NCBI GenBank assembly: GCA_000151295.1
Contig: GG745337.1
Location: 829,001 to 893,000, forward strand
DNA from: Allomyces macrogynus ATCC 38327
Taxonomy: Eukaryota; Blastocladiomycota; Blastocladiomycetes; Blastocladiales; Blastocladiaceae
Direction of reading: 5' to 3'
Length of the DNA: 64,000 nucleotides
This document shows positions 7,791 through 48,098 of this stretch, one piece after another; position 1 is the stretch's first letter, and the number at the start of each line of letters is the position of its first letter. Both the position numbers and the translations under genes were made by a program. A model generated the notes under the pieces. That model saw only the letters and a list, made by a program, of their open reading frames with translations, had not been told where the DNA came from and did not search any database.

Positions 7791-7913
7791 TACAGGAGGT
7801 CTCGTCACGAGCTGACTCAAAATCACATTACGCCACGTCAGTCTTACATGTCTGTTCGATGTTCGATAAGTCAGCCAAGCAACCCCAGGACTTGCCAAGA
7901 AAACATCTGACAA

Positions 7914-8499
7914 GCTAGACCCAATTTACTGGGCCACAAGTATCCATCCCCTGCGTCCAACTGATGGTTATCGTGTCGTGCATGGTACTCGCCAAGTTGG
8001 CACATGACCAAGACCTGCAACATCAAGCCAGTGGCACAATGCAAATGTGTTTTTCCCATTTGAATGCAAATAACTGGCTTGAACTTGTTGGGAGCAACGC
8101 CGCCCATTGGTCGTGTGGACAGCTCCAGCTGGTTGATACTTCAGTTGGCAGTGGACATCCCATTCTTATCCAAAGACTACAATGCTCCTGCTCCTTGAAT
8201 TGTGCTCAAGAGGATCATAGGTGGTTGAGGTAAGTTGTTGGACATGCATGAAAATGGCCAAGACATATTTGCAGAAGAGTGACGTGAGTCTTCAAAAGAT
8301 GATCTTGCTGATCCTTTCATTCTGAGTCATGTTGTAGTTGTTCCAATGAATGCAGCAAATTTGTGCCCATCATCATTGGGGCAAGGCAACTGGGGTGTGT
8401 GCAGTTGCTGCATGTGTGATGCATGAAAGTGGACATAAAGATGCCTTCACCAAGGATCAGTCAGATTTGCTCCATTCAACACACTGGATTTGTGCATAC
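7914..8499. other. CpG-poor spacer, no gene seen
   Basis: The stretch upstream of COG6 has lower GC than its neighbours and few CpG dinucleotides (TG and CA are common). I see no convincing coding exon, tRNA or tandem repeat in it. It is probably the left shoulder of the transposon-bearing island that continues to about 12.2 kb. Confidence 0.5.
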
Positions 8500-8517
8500 T
8501 CCTTTTCAGACTTAAAG

Positions 8518-8832
8518 TAGGAAATGCATCAGCCATGTGGGAATTCATGGGTCCAAACTGGGACAGGGCAAGCACAAAGTGGGACGATTTAACCATTCTG
8601 GGATTTTGCAGCACCAGGTGTGTGGGATAATGCAAAATCATTTGGGATATCTGGAAAACATGTGGGACAACTGACAACAGCTTGGGATTACTGACACAAT
8701 GTGGGACAAGCATCAACAAAAGTGGGAATTCCATCAACAAATTGGGAGAAGTATGAACCAAAAGTGGGATAATCAGGCCTTGAATTTGGGAATTGAGTGG
8801 TCCAAAGTGGGACTGGTGTGGACCATTTGGGA
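8518..8832 (+). repeat. Left array of 16 TGGGA motifs at about 20.7-bp period
   Basis: TGGGA (first copy TAGGA) starts at 8518, 8538, 8559, 8580, 8599, 8623, 8643, 8663, 8683, 8702, 8723, 8743, 8765, 8787, 8808 and 8828. Spacings are 19-24 bp with mean 20.7, about two turns of B-DNA, so every motif would face the same side of the helix. The preceding base alternates (GTGGGA versus TTGGGA or CTGGGA) for most of the array, giving a dimeric period of about 41 bp. Bases between the motifs are not conserved. The layout suggests subterminal transposase-binding sites; binding itself is inferred. Confidence 0.85.
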
Positions 8833-8930
8833 ATGTGACTGCATTGGACTCCCTCAGCCAAGTCAAGCTGTTGTTGATGATGATCAACCAGCTGCCATTG
8901 TCCCGAACTCTCAGCCACCTCTGAAACTGC

Positions 8931-10521
8931 ATGCGGGCGCAAAACATCATGGCTCAATGTGCTGCCCACATGGCACAAGCCGCCACTGCACATGGGCAAG
9001 ACGCCCCTGTGCTGCCTGCTCACAACCCAGCCCCACCCATCAACAGTGACCCACACGACCCAGTTGTGGCTGTGATTGCCAACCAGCTTGCCACTGTGCT
9101 CACTGGCACTGCTGAGGGCCCACCCATACACGACCATGACATGCATGACAATGGGGATGAGGATGAGGGTGTGCATGATGACCAGATGGAGGGTGGTGAC
9201 AACAAGAACAATGGTGTGCCATGGTTTGACCCACACACCCCTCACCCAAACTGTTGTGGCTGCCACCAGCACAAGTGGACTGCCAAGGAGCACCAAGAGA
9301 TCATCCGCATGTATTTTGAGCAGAACCTGTCAGTCAAGCAGATTGTGCAGCTCCTCCCAGCTGGGAACAAGTCAACAGTCTTGTGTCATCAATGACTTTG
9401 AGTCTGGCAAGCTTGCACCAAAGCCATGTGGTGGAGAGTGCAGCTGCAAGGTGCAGGAAGAGCACATCAAGTTTTTGATGGGTGAGGTCCATGTCTTTCT
9501 CCACTTTTTTGTGCAGTTTTGTGGCCTACTGACTTGGCAACCTGTTCCTCAACCAGGTCATGGAAAATGTGGTGCTCACACTTGAGCAGCTGTGCCAGCA
9601 ACTCTACAACCAGTTTGACGTCGACATGACAAAGGAAACAATTGTGTGGTGCCTGTGTGAGGAGAATTTTGTGCTCAAGTGGCTTATGCACAAGGTCATG
9701 ACCATGAACAACCCTGAGCGCATTGCCAAGTGCTGCATTTGGTGCAAGCAGTTCCTCAAGCACCACAACTTCCATGATGTGCTGTGCCTCAACAAGTCAG
9801 GCTTCAACCTGCACCTGTACCATGGATTTGGGCATGTGCCATGTGGCCAGCATGCTGTCCAGGTTGTGCTGATGCAATGTGGCCACAACATGTCACTTTG
9901 CCTGTGCATGGGCAAGCACAGTGTGGTTCACGTCAAGGTGGTGCTTGGTGCGTTCAATGGGGAGCTGGTGTGCAGTTTCATGTCCTTGTTCCTGGATCAC
10001 ATGGTTGGCTCACATTTTTGCACGTGACCTACATGTAGTTGATGCAGTTCAACCACAACCTCATGCACATGCTTGCTCAGCAGTGCCTGGGCCAGCACAA
10101 GACAATTCTCCTTGACAATGTTCACTTCCACCACAACTATGAAGCTGTGGCAGTGCTTGAGCAGGCTGGGCATCACCTCTCCTTTCTCCCACTGTACTCG
10201 CTGCACCTCAATGCCTGTGAGCTCGCATTCTTGTTGATCAAGTTGAAATTCAAGCGCAAAAACCCAGTGGACTGGGGCCCAATCACGGAGTGGATCAAAG
10301 CAGCTGCCTGGTGGATCACATGCCAGCAGGCAGTGGGCTGGATTCATGAGGTGAACCACTGGGCGCAGGCCACCATGCATGGGGAGCCAATGGGTCGTGC
10401 GCACGACGCTCCTGTCCCTGCGGCTGGTGCTGCAGTTGCTGCAGGTGCAGGTGCGGGTGTGGCATGTATGGGGGAGGCTGTGGGTGCTGCTGAAGGTGGT
10501 GCAGGTGCAGGTGCTGTTTGA
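8931..10521 (+). pseudogene. Decayed DD34E transposase (Tc1/mariner/IS630-like)
   Basis: Three frame-shifted blocks read as one transposase. 8931-9395 has an acidic N-terminus and a helix-turn-helix (KWTAKEHQEIIRMYFEQNLS). About 9386-9490 is linked by a one-base frame break. After a possible intron (GTCCATG at about 9487 to CAACCAG at about 9557) come 9560-10027 and 10039-10521, the DDE/DDN core. The second Asp is at 10114-10116 (LLDNVHFHH) and the Glu at 10219-10221, 34 residues apart, which is the DD34E spacing. The first catalytic Asp position reads Asn (LNKSGF, codon AAC at 9791), where the family has DE(S/A)GF. The usual PPYSP motif reads PLYSL. The protein is unusually rich in Cys, His, Trp and Met. 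The Ala/Gly-rich C-terminus (10410-10521) is low complexity. The copy cannot be catalytically active as it stands. Confidence 0.8.
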
Positions 10522-10707
10522 TTGCTGGCGTGTTTTGGATGTTGGCACGGATTTTGACCATTTTGAATGTGCGGCGCGTTTTTTCTTGGACATGCGCTGT
10601 GCGGAGTGCCCTGGGCGTGAAGACATTTCGAATCCATGACCTATTTGTCTTGCTGTTGGTTCGGTTGTTGCTTGTCAGGAGAGGAAATGTTGGGGACTGT
10701 GGCATGT

Positions 10708-11018
10708 TCCCATGTTGAAGTGAACAGTCCCACTTTGGACCACTTGTTTCCCAATTTCATCCCTGGGCCATCCCACATTGGTCCACACTATTCCCAAATG
10801 CTTGATGCTTTTCCCACTTTGGAGCACAGGTTTCCCAAATTCTTTTGCCCTTCCCAAATGTTTTTCCTTTGGTCCCAAATTATGCCCACTGGTCCCAGTT
10901 TGCAATTGAAATGTCCCACCTGTTGTTGCAACATTCCAGAATGGTTGAAACGTCCCACTTTGCTCTTGCCTCGTCCCATTTGGTCCTGCAATTTCCCACA
11001 TGCTTGATGCTTTTCCCA
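10708..11018 (-). repeat. Right array of TCCCA motifs, inverted partner of the left array
   Basis: TCCCA starts at 10708, 10728, 10749, 10771, 10792, 10812, 10833, 10852, 10873, 10893, 10914, a decayed TCCAG at 10935, then 10953, 10974, 10994 and 11014. Spacings are 18-22 bp, mean 20.4. Copy number and period match the left array in mirror orientation. The last units belong to the part that aligns with the left outer end, so the array is a structural part of the element's long inverted repeat. Confidence 0.85.
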
Positions 11019-11037
11019 CTTTGAATCTGAAAAAGGG

Positions 11038-12645
11038 CGACATGTCTAGATGTTGCTTTTCATCACCAGGAAGTGTGCAGGCATCTGTTCACAACATATA
11101 TTTACCCCAAATGTACTGTAAGGCTCTTTGGTGTGCTTCTGAGAATAATCAACAAATGGAATTTAGATCCAGGAGACAAAGAAGTGTCCATTTAGGGAAG
11201 CAAACTGGCCAACATTGATCTATGACACATTCATCCCAGACAATATGGGTGCTGCTGAATAGGAAATGCAAAACAACAAGAAGATAAATACATCCGCGTG
11301 TTTGGGAGGGTGAGGTATCCAATTCATGCATCATGAATCAAGTAAACATCAAGTAAAGTCACACAATCTGTCAGATAAGTTGTATCAAGACACAACCAGC
11401 AACAACATTTGACAACAGGCATGTGCTCAGTTGAAACTGTTCATGCAGAAAGAAAGGCAAAATTGAAACTTGAGAACTCCACTTTGGAAGGGGGGTACAT
11501 TTTCAAAAATTTGGATTAGTGTGGGCCAGTTTTTTTTGGGGTGGGTGGGATTTTCCCAGCTGGCTGCAGTGGCAGCTGCAGTTGATGATGATTTGTGTGG
11601 GTGGATGTGAGTGTGTGTGTGTGGGGGGGGGGGGGGGGGGGGATTGGTGGGTACAACTATGCATGGTGTGCAGTGCAGGTCTCTGACATCAGGGATGGGG
11701 GTTCGTTTTGGCTGAGCAGCCAGGCAAAAGATGGCAGCATGATTGATTGATTGATTGAGGTTGATGTGTTTTGGGTGAGGGCAGTCATTGAAATTGTATT
11801 GAATGTAAGAACAAATGAAAGCGTCATTGTTGTCTGCATTGTCAAGCACTGAGTGTTGTTGTCAGAAGAAAAAGTAAAGGAAACCGTTGTTTTTTCCAAA
11901 GCAAAATTGTAGTTTCAAAACTTGGGATCCGGGATTGGCAGGGGCAGCCTGGCGGATTCTGATCAAAAGCTGCAGCCACATGGCACATTGTATTTGAATG
12001 CTGCCGTGGGTTTTGTGTTTGGGGTTTTGAGGGGATCCCCAAAAGGGTCATGAGCATTTGCCCCTGAAACCCCAAATGGAGGAAAAAGGGGGGCAAGCAA
12101 AAACCAGGCTGGGGAAGGTGGAGGTGGGAGGTGGGAAAAAAAAGGTGAACAGGACAAAAAAAACTTGCAAAAAAGAGCGCATCGATACTCATGGCAGGCG
12201 CGCCACTCCATCATCATCATCATCATCATCCAAGTCCAGAGTGAGTCGGAAGTGAATAAAAAGGCACATGAGGTCAGGCAGTCAAGCAAAGAGGTGCCAC
12301 TGGGTTCTACAACTGAGGATGCCATGGCAAAGGGATGCACGACCAAGGATACCGTGGTGTGGATGGCAGGTGCGGCCGCAGCAAGGAAGAGGACGGGGAT
12401 GCGGGCGCATGGCGCAGAAGGGGTTGGTTGGGGATGTGCAATGGGGGGTGCGCAATGGGGACGTGAATGAGCAAATTGCATCACATGGTCTGGTGGTGCT
12501 GACCTGAGCCAGATTGGTGGGGAGGGCAGCAGGGCGAAAGCGCGTGGGGATGCGGCGCGACAGGAATGCAAACCGCGCCATTGGTGGTGCGCAGGCAGGC
12601 AGGCAGGCACAGTGTAGAGAGGTGGGTGGGTGGATAGGAAAGCAA
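11038..12645. other. Non-genic right part of the CpG-poor island, with simple repeats
   Basis: No supported gene. CpG stays low until about 12.18 kb and then rises. Visible are a GTGTGT run into a G20 homopolymer (11623-11642), a short GATT repeat near 11738-11756, an ATC microsatellite (about 12210-12230) and a GGCA repeat (about 12590-12608). A long minus-strand open frame at 11963-12850 is mostly low-complexity Pro/Ala/Met and changes register with the microsatellites, so I do not treat it as a gene. Confidence 0.55.
11623..11642 (+). repeat. G20 homopolymer
   Basis: An uninterrupted run of 20 G follows a (GT)n tract. It is a potential quadruplex former, and its length is likely to be unreliable in the assembly. 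Confidence 0.9.
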
Positions 12646-45598: not shown

Positions 45599-48098
45599 AT
45601 GCCGCCACTACCGCTCGTCACGACCCCGGCCCTCGCTGCGCCCTCGCCATCGCAGCCGCTGACCGAATTCAGCATTGGCGGGTCAGCCAGTCCCGTCGAG
45701 TTACCGGCCTCGTTCCACATCATCGGCCTGCTCCTCGCCCTCTCCTCATCGGCGTTCATTGGCGGGTCCTTTATCCTGCAAAAGAAGGGTATGATCTCGG
45801 CCGCTGCCAAGGCCGCTGCCGCGCGGTCCACGTCGGGCAAACACGAGTCGCCCGCGCCCGCACCGACACCCGCCAACATGGCCATCGCGTCGAGCTTTCC
45901 CGTGACTCCGGCCGTCCTGCGTACGCGCACGGGATCGGCCCCCGCCGAGTCCACCATCTCGGTCCTTGCGCCAGAGCCGTTGACCTTGACGGACGAAGGG
46001 TACGCGCCCGTCTCGGACGCGCTGACACCCGCGAGCCCGACGGTACCGGAAACGCCGCGCGTGGATCCCGGTCGCAGGCGATCGAAACATGCGGGGGCTG
46101 CAGGGGAGAAGTCGCGTGGGGGGAAGAAGCGCCGGCGTGGGCCGCTGTACTTGTACTCGAAGTTGTGGTGGCTTGGGACGGCGAGTCTGCTCGTGGGCGA
46201 GGCGGCCAATTTGGGGGCCTACGCGTTCACGACAGCCATGGTCGTGACGCCGCTCGGCGCGCTCAGTGTTTTCGTAAGGTACGTGTGAGATTTCAAGGCT
46301 GGTGCCGAATTGAGAACACGTCGCGTTGGATTCTGACGAGTGCGCGGATTGGTAGCGCGATTCTCTCGTCGATGCTCTTGAAAGAGCAAATGAATCTGCA
46401 GGGAAAGCTCGGTTGCGGGCTCATTCTGATTGGGGCAACTATTCTTGTCTTAAATGGTGCGCTCCTTCGACTCTCGAATCATCATCACGCCGACAAGTGA
46501 CTGACAACCGCCATTGACCAGCACCAACCCAGGCATCGCGAGCTACCATGTCCGACTTCGCCTTGGCCTACCTTTCCGCGCGTTTCATCGCCTGGCAAGT
46601 CCTCGTTCTCGTCGCTGCTTCCACGCTGCTCTTCTGGGTCGCTCGCCGGCGTGGTGGCGAACTCGCGCGCCGTAACCCGCTCGTCTACCTCGGCATCTGC
46701 TCGCTCCTCGGATCGCTCTCGGTCGTCGAGATCCAAGCCGTAGGCACGTCGCTCGTCAGTTCCGCGGCCGGCGCGGGCACGAACGACGCTGCGCAACCCT
46801 GGGCGTGGGCGCTGTTCTGGATTGCTCTCGTCAAGGCAATTGTCGAGTTGCTCGCGCAGCTACACTACCTGAACTCGGCCCTGTCTCGTTTCTCCACCGT
46901 GCTCGTCACGCCCATCTACTATGCGCTCTTCACGTCAGCGACATTGCTCGCCAACTGGATCCTGTCCCCGCCATGGGCGCAACTGTCGGGCCAGACGATT
47001 GCCACGTGTATTCTGTCGTTTGCCGTGATTTGCACGGGGATGGTCCTGCTTCAGACCAGCAAGATCTCAACCGCCGCCACGAATGCCGGCGCGCAGGCCA
47101 CATCCGCAGACCGGAACGCCGCCGCTGTCGCTGTCGCTGTCGCCAGCGGCGGTGGAGGTGCCTTGACCCCCTGTGTGCTAAGTCGCGAAACTCTCGCCAG
47201 TTCCGCGCCATCTCTCCACGGCATCTCCACCGCGCACGGACCAGACAAGTCCCTCGCCGCCCTCACGCGCGAATGGCCATCGGCATGGCTCGACGGCGAA
47301 CCCGCCGATCTCCCCTCCCTGCCCCCACCGTTTCTCATGGCCGAGGACCCGGCCGCGTGGTACCTGGCCGTCGTGCAAGCACTGACCCGACCGGACCCGG
47401 ACGCCGACGCGCCCATTGCACCAGCGTCGTCGCGGGACGAAATGGCGGCGAGTAGCTGTAGTTGCGCAAGTTCCATGACACCGGACCCGCAAGGGAAAGT
47501 GCCCGTGCCGTTCCCGACCCTCGCTAAAACCGACCGCGTCGGCATGGCAGCGGTCGCGGCCGAGGCCGGGTCCGCGCCGCCGCGGTTTCTCGGGATCGCC
47601 ACGTGCGACCCGCGCGCGCGCGCGTCGTCAATGCCCGCGCGGATCGCGACGGCTGTGACGGCGCCGTTTGCCGCATGGACCGGGCCCACCGGATCGTCCG
47701 GGTCGCGGCCTGGGACGCGGCTCGCGCCGATTCCCGGGGATTCCAGCAGCGGTTGCAGTTCCGACGACCAACTTGCACCGATCCCCGCGCTGGCCGCCGC
47801 GTCATCTGCGGTGCCCGTCCTCGTCACGTCCGCGGAACTGCGCGCGCGGGCTGCGGCCACGGCGCTCGCGCAATTTGTCGAGACGTTGGTGGCGGTGCGC
47901 GGTGGAGTCGCGGGTGTGGAACCGCCCGAAACGGCGCCGGCGCCCGGGATGATGCGGGCCGCACGGGATCGCGCGGCAGCCGCGGCCGCGGGGGCGGTGG
48001 TCGCGGCGGTTGCGGTTGCGGCGAGAGCGAGGTCCCCACCCCCGCCGCCGGCGCGTGCGGAAGGGGGTGGGGAGGATGGGAAGGGGAAGGATCGGTGA
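45599..48098 (+). CDS. NIPA-family magnesium transporter
   Basis: NIPA proteins are membrane Mg2+ transporters with about nine helices. Exons are 45599-46273, 46356-46456 and 46522-48098. The first has FHIIGLLLALSSSAFIGGSFILQKKGM, a disordered insertion of about 130 residues inside the first loop, then YSKLWWLGTASLLVGEAANLGAYAFTTAMVVTPLGALSV. The second holds AILSSMLLKEQMNLQGKLGCGLILIGATILVL. The third holds NPLVYLGICSLLGSLSVVEIQAVGTSL, the hallmark QLHYLNSALSRFSTVLVTPIYYALFT, and a final helix. A disordered Ala/Pro/Asp tail of about 330 residues follows, beyond the normal family length. The first-loop insertion and the long tail are unusual. Confidence 0.9.

Follow-up and report, generated by a model that had tools for sequence, protein, structure and literature searches.

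Judged from its sequence, a Tc1/mariner-like transposon of Allomyces macrogynus has a real, conserved and unusual end architecture. Its two inverted ends, each of about 335 bp, hold 16 conserved sites apiece at steps of about two helical turns, and each site is likely to be bound by one molecule of the element's transposase, the molecules lying side by side; we put the probability of this reading at roughly 0.6. One copy extends over positions 8499-11037 of the window, that is, the whole 64,000-bp stretch of DNA that was analysed (C66:829001-893000 of a searched genome of 54 Mb in 75 contigs). The host assignment comes from an ORF at 46548-48095, which matches AMAG_06886 of A. macrogynus ATCC 38327, a blastocladiomycete, at 100% identity. 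The features of the window copy are as follows.

8497..8498, no strand: TA target dinucleotide at the left end, assigned from TA beside 14 of 21 outer ends and from the empty site of another copy.
8499..8848, plus strand: left terminal inverted repeat; its 16 TGGGA-type sites, which point inward, are at 8518 (now TAGGA through decay) and at 8538-8828.
8931..9481, plus strand: decayed exon 1 of the transposase, with a low-complexity N-terminus followed by a helix-turn-helix (HTH)-like stretch, the HTH being weakly supported.
9482..9556, plus strand: predicted intron 1 (GTGAGG...CCAG), from GT-AG and the frames.
9557..10003, plus strand: predicted exon 2, with a second HTH-like stretch and the first half of the DDE domain; the first catalytic Asp is Asn.
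10004..10047, plus strand: predicted intron 2 (GTTGGC...GCAG), from GT-AG and the frames; L039 and L040 have the same frame change.
10048..10521, plus strand: predicted exon 3, matching Pfam DDE_3, with the second Asp (LLDN) and the Glu (NACE) 34 residues apart.
10690..11037, minus strand: right terminal inverted repeat; its 16 TCCCA-type sites (TGGGA when read inward) occupy 10708-11014, and the site at 10934 has become TTCCA by decay.

The initial annotation had described mirror-image arrays of 16 motifs per arm, and these were seen, with 15 exact sites and one single-mismatch site in each. The left arm carries 15 exact TGGGA words at 8538-8828, with a mean spacing of 20.7 bp (s.d. 1.3), and the right arm 15 exact TCCCA words at 10708-11014; the sixteenth sites are the TAGGA at 8518 and the TTCCA at 10934. 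Steps between sites are 19-24 bp within each arm, and the two arms are inverted repeats with 70% identity across about 310 bp. When significance was checked with 2000 dinucleotide-preserving shuffles per arm, the arrays stood far above chance. The shuffled arms had mean counts of 2.0 (left) and 1.5 (right) and a maximum of 6, and 13 pairs at a lag of 19-22 bp were present in each arm, where shuffling gave at most 2. The rest of the 64-kb window contained 105 TGGGA/TCCCA words (1.7 per kb), and neither strand had any pair at lag 19-22. The CpG observed/expected ratio was 0.23 in the element and 0.08 in the arms, compared with 1.24-1.28 in the rest of the window.

CpG was also depleted in both flanks of the element (observed/expected, 0.25 and 0.10; region 7900-11700) relative to the ratio of 1.2-1.3 elsewhere, which suggests that the element was inserted into a repeat region already methylated or mutated.

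A DNA search of the genome with positions 8500-11037 gave 54 matches, which corresponded to 17 loci including the window. Lack of the arrays in other copies had been named at the outset as a result that would refute the proposal; instead, arrays were found in all 16 further stretches, from copies with both full arms to a stub with three exact sites (L054). Three TGGGA words at 18-22-bp steps occurred at 152 places in the genome, compared with 10 for the reversed control, and among the 100 of these 152 places that were listed, 92 were inside the transposon family and 8 elsewhere. Both arms were recognisable in seven copies (the window, L039, L040, L041, L045, L046, and L049), with the outer part of one arm lost in L039 and L041.

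Arm sequence and structure were used to sort the copies into two subfamilies. Subfamily A (the window, L039, L040, and L041) is 2.3-2.8 kb long and includes the gene. Subfamily B is shortened, and a single structure is shared by L045 (1.41 kb), L046 (1.37 kb) and three copies with one arm each, L047, L052, and L053; L049 (1.27 kb) was placed with B by its arms. Both arrays are retained in L045, L046, and L049 (1.27-1.41 kb), with 7-14 exact sites per arm. The recurrence of the B structure at five loci looks like what would be expected of copies mobilised in trans. Since the shortened copies also keep both arrays, the arrays appear to belong to the requirements of the machinery.

Conservation was examined in 22 arms, which represent 16 of the 17 loci, the L054 stub and 41_R, whose outer end is replaced, being excluded from the alignment. 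Exact TGGGA was present at 7-15 of the 16 positions per arm, a count that is one too low for right arms because their site 7 is shifted by 1 bp. In the majority sequences of the four arm classes (left or right, A or B), TGGGA occupied 59 of 64 aligned positions; among the remaining five, two were intact but shifted by 1 bp and three had one mismatch. Left and right arms were identical at 83% of motif comparisons (7074/8529) and at 56% of spacer comparisons (13446/24184). Masking matters here because the element is CpG-depleted, and with CpG-type dinucleotides left out the values were 85.5% and 62%, respectively. Anchoring of the alignment can favour the motif, and the offset profile is the sole control for it. 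In this profile, identity was highest at offset 0, falling at offsets of 5-12 bp from 0.83 to 0.46-0.53 between left and right arms, from 0.90 to 0.62-0.69 between the left arms of A and B, and from 0.85 to 0.58-0.71 between their right arms.

Two claims of the initial annotation needed revision in this light. The bases between motifs had been called unconserved, which is true from unit to unit within an arm, but they can be aligned between copies and between arms (56%, left versus right). Similarly, spacing had been said to be kept rather than repeat identity; the spacing is indeed kept, but so is an extended motif, approximately [AC]A[AT][GT]TGGGA[ACT]. In addition, units 1 and 11, ten steps apart, have a common 21-bp word (AAAGTGGGAAAAGCATCAAGC) in several arms, so that some units arose by duplication, as a trace of array growth.

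Spacings between recognised neighbours in the 22 arms were 19-22 bp in 234 of 248 cases and followed a shared order, from outside to inside, of 20-21-21-19-20-20-20-20-19-21-20-21-22-21-20. Arm classes departed from this order by single bases at steps 2 and 8 (right A), 10 (left B), and 6 (right arms, where site 7 is shifted, as read from the raw spacings), and the class arrays were 310-311 bp throughout. Between the left and right class majorities there were 94 (A) or 92 (B) substitutions in 309 positions, together with three 1-bp indels in each subfamily. Measured against their class, single copies showed 354 substitutions and 25 decay indels, which were 1-19 bp long. This decay count rests on 16 of the 22 arms because 42_R, 44_R, and 48_R were assigned to no class, and 39_R, 50_R, and 51_R, which contributed to the class majorities, were kept out of it. 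At the decay rate, 6.6 (A) and 6.5 (B) left-right indels were predicted, compared with the three seen. Between A and B, the left arms had one indel versus 4.5 predicted and the right arms three versus 3.2. The shortfall in indels thus appears modest in number, and it is absent between the right arms of A and B. A stronger sign of constraint is that no indel between classes is longer than 1 bp, whereas most decay indels are.

The ancestral spacing vector has a mean of 20.33 bp and a Rayleigh R of 0.77 at 10.17 bp per turn, compared with 0.36 at 10.5. Its maximum coherence over 9.8-10.9 was reached by 8 of 20000 random spacing vectors (16-25 bp). If the pitch is that of free DNA, 10.5 bp per turn, successive sites would drift round the helix, completing about one turn over an arm; slight overwinding would bring them to a common side. 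The suggestion that all contacts lie on one face of the DNA is therefore only approximately right, with the sites in phase at the first of these pitches but not at the second.

The gene between the arms matches Pfam DDE_3, with an E value of 2.7e-8 in the last exon of the window copy and 3.7e-11 in exons 2+3 of L039. Its catalytic layout is DD34E (motifs LDESG, LLDN, and NACE), and the element has terminal inverted repeats; both are characters of the Tc1/mariner (IS630-Tc1) group. The first catalytic residue is Asp in L039 (LDESG) and Asn in the window copy (LNKSG), where the frame of exon 1 is also broken near 9393, with a stop at 9393-9395. With the Asp replaced by Asn and exon 1 running into a stop, the window copy is evidently dead. 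As for the bipartite (two-HTH) N-terminal DNA-binding domain typical of Tc1/mariner, the HTH matches to Pfam were weak in the window copy (Clr5, E 0.036; HTH_33, E 0.27), the N-terminal counterpart in L039 had no Pfam match at E <= 0.1, and AlphaFold gave a low-confidence three-helix model of the N-terminal region (mean pLDDT, 44).

Four matches to DDE_3 were listed when the host genome was searched, each of them in a copy of the transposon family. The Allomyces transposase had no significant match in PDB sequences or in the protein database. The protein search with the predicted exons 2+3 of L039 yielded no relative at E <= 1e-3 (137 candidates), and the search of PDB sequences returned two chance-level matches only (E 0.83). 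A scan of IMG/VR viral contigs with alignment A2 gave 44 pattern matches, none of which was confirmed; the stop-containing protein pieces of L040 and L041 were left out of alignments A1 and A2.

The identification as a transposon, made in the initial annotation, was upheld by the DDE_3 transposase remnant, the inverted ends, and TA at most ends. The ends of copies read TA followed by CTCCTTTTCAG, and this terminal block is similar in most ends. TA adjoins 14 of the 21 matched outer ends; the other seven have CG (the right end of the window copy, with no recognisable TA), TG (L040, left), TT (L041, L042, and L049), or CA (L046 and L049). Both outer ends were matched in five copies, with TA on both sides in L045 only, on one side in three, and on neither in L049. 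An empty counterpart of L040 was found in a duplicated region, in which C34:151700-151929 (L062) is without the transposon and C40:217270-219953 carries it, the two showing 69% identity over the stretch that includes the insertion point. Where the flanks of L040 are joined, they are 2 bp longer than the empty site, which reads GATA there. This one paralogous site supports, without proving, a 2-bp target duplication, because identity in the alignment is 69%, further gaps lie close by, and the left dinucleotide of L040 is TG. The search for an empty site of L045 gave only a partial match, to 82 bp of one flank. From the 14 of 21 ends and the C34 site, the 2-bp TA target site duplication typical of Tc1/mariner was rated as present.

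By eye, CTCCTTTTCAG (window 8499-8512 and the ends of other copies) has the look of an inward-facing 3' splice acceptor at either end of the element, which might be partly spliced from transcripts.

The Allomyces element is like the Tc1/mariner elements Sleeping Beauty and Bari in its TA ends, its inverted ends, its DDE_3-type DD34E transposase and the presence of more than one site per arm. It differs from them in site number, with 16 evenly stepped sites per end compared with 2 in Sleeping Beauty and 3 in Bari. The IR/DR arrangement of Tc1/mariner involves two or three sites per end, described as two or three direct repeats in PMC4120734. According to PMC7827188, Sleeping Beauty requires all four sites and a tetramer, and Mos1 and Tc3 have one site per end. 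That the number of sites per end is far above the classical one, as had been proposed, was thus borne out against the one to three reported for Tc1/mariner. In the titles and opening parts of abstracts returned by searches of open-licence literature, no Tc1/mariner element exceeded three sites per end and this Allomyces family was not described; print beyond these may differ. Allomyces elements in print include Fanzor families (PMC3627910) and DIRS-like elements (PMC3266345).

Many short repeats near each end are also found in CACTA (En/Spm) and Ac/Ds elements, which belong to different superfamilies. The subterminal repeats of CACTA and Ac/Ds are irregular in spacing and mixed in orientation. 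CACTA elements require them in cis, where TnpA, a separate protein, binds them (PMC2613891). Foldback types (FB, TU, Tetris, and Galileo) are alike in having long inverted ends with internal repeats. As described in PMC4079207, Galileo arms contain extra transposase sites and Tetris repeats vary in number, whereas in Allomyces only a short core is kept and number and spacing are fixed; the near-identical tandem repeats of variable number that define foldback elements were not seen in the Allomyces arms. The ends bound by TnsB in Tn7 and CRISPR-associated elements, where the transposase forms multimers on repeated sites, resemble the arms in having several sites per end; at these ends the spacing of sites matters. 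In VchCAST, TnsB sites number three per end, 1-bp changes matter, and activity has a 10-bp period (PMC10201428). VchCAST is bacterial and uses other machinery, and the Allomyces array is longer and regular, so this is a likeness and not membership. Each arm is best read as a multi-site end that would be bound cooperatively by transposase, in the manner of TnsB at Tn7.

In the mechanism we favour, the transposase, rather than a host protein, would bind the TGGGA-type sites, and each step of about 20.4 bp would correspond to the stretch covered by a single bipartite (two-HTH) DNA-binding domain. Adjacent molecules on the same side of the DNA would bind cooperatively and pair the two ends, and cutting would occur only at the outermost site, beside TA. 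The site, its regular step, its inward orientation at both ends, and the lack of longer indels agree with a stack of DNA-binding domains running along the helix, one to each step. A further proposal is that about 16 transposases polymerise on each arm, all on the same side of the helix, and that only completed filaments on both arms pair the ends and cut, so that the array would be a counting device gating transposition; this we regard as tentative, with the odds against it.

An alternative that we consider unlikely is that the array is a platform on which a host DNA-binding protein (a transcription factor, a silencer, or an architectural protein), recruited by the element to its two ends, acts in expression, silencing, or end pairing, with the transposase using the terminal 20-30 bp only. 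Tc1/mariner relatives need one to three transposase sites per end (PMC4120734 and PMC7827188), a number so greatly exceeded here that most sites could serve another protein. CACTA subterminal repeats, too, are recognised by a protein of their own, TnpA (PMC2613891), and most ends of the Allomyces copies resemble one another in the terminal CTCCTTTTCAG block itself. A point against the favoured reading is that, with no transposase relative in the protein search and only chance matches in PDB, nothing ties the binding domain to TGGGA. However, mirror-image 16-site arrays in shortened copies suggest mobilisation in trans and not expression of the element's gene, and the motif word outside the element, at 1.7 per kb, is never at lag 19-22, so the window gives no sign of host arrays. 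Chromatin offers a different role for the spacing, which is near 2 × 10.17 bp and could position nucleosomes on the ends and so control access to them. The phase coherence (R 0.77 at 10.17 bp versus 0.36 at 10.5) is in keeping with this, and 10.17 bp per turn is close to the value for nucleosomal DNA. Nucleosome positioning sequences, however, are diffuse dinucleotide patterns, unlike a strict 5-9-bp word, and each arm covers about two nucleosomes while the array runs through it without a gap; we hold a nucleosomal role to be very improbable.

The arms could also be a decayed foldback-type tandem repeat of 20-21 bp, grown by slippage, with the periodic TGGGA as a functionless leftover. Foldback elements do carry long inverted repeats with tandem subrepeats (PMC4079207), and the AAAGTGGGAAAAGCATCAAGC word shared by units 1 and 11 in several arms is of the kind that such growth would leave. 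Slippage, however, would alter arrays by whole units, and every class array measures 310-311 bp. Arms that disagree at 44% of the spacer bases compared have the same number of units and, apart from single-base changes, the same order of spacings. Conservation of the motif greatly exceeds that of its surroundings, and TRF recovered only fragments of 1.9-3.3 copies from the arms. A foldback satellite is thus disfavoured by the constant unit number and spacing order, with spacers that differ between units, and this origin seems distinctly improbable to us. The same spacing raised a coding explanation, in which TGG GAN would specify Trp-Asp/Glu every 7 codons, 21 bp being 7 codons and parts of the arms lying in open frames. 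However, the arrays have opposite orientations at the two ends, no more than 5 of the 15 spacings are multiples of 3, and sites occur in all three frames; barring undetected splicing, the frame count refutes a coding repeat, and we give it almost no credence.

If transposase occupancy of the arms is correct, the number of sites per end in Tc1/mariner-type elements would extend from 1-3 to 16, and their spacing would have been kept nearly base for base across deep divergence. The family would also allow a test of whether helical phasing and cooperativity, as at bacterial Tn7-like ends, govern a eukaryotic DDE transposase. For other genomes, it provides a search pattern: a TGGGA-like word that recurs at 19-22-bp steps and has an inverted counterpart 1-3 kb away.

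Two minor observations were made at other loci. In the L049 copy, on C71, the left flank beside the array looked by eye like the antisense 3' half of a tRNA; ARAGORN found no tRNA in this locus. At L059:1339-1790 (C65:532338-532789), there are 36 TCC words with 27 of 35 steps at 10-12 bp, and TCCCA is often 21-22 bp apart. This array was a single copy in the DNA search, and three minus-strand frames beside it had no Pfam match. It showed no inverted homology with the GGA-rich minisatellite, an unrelated sequence that lies about 2.3 kb from it, at approximately L066:2340-3060, and was rejected as a mirrored-end element or second family.
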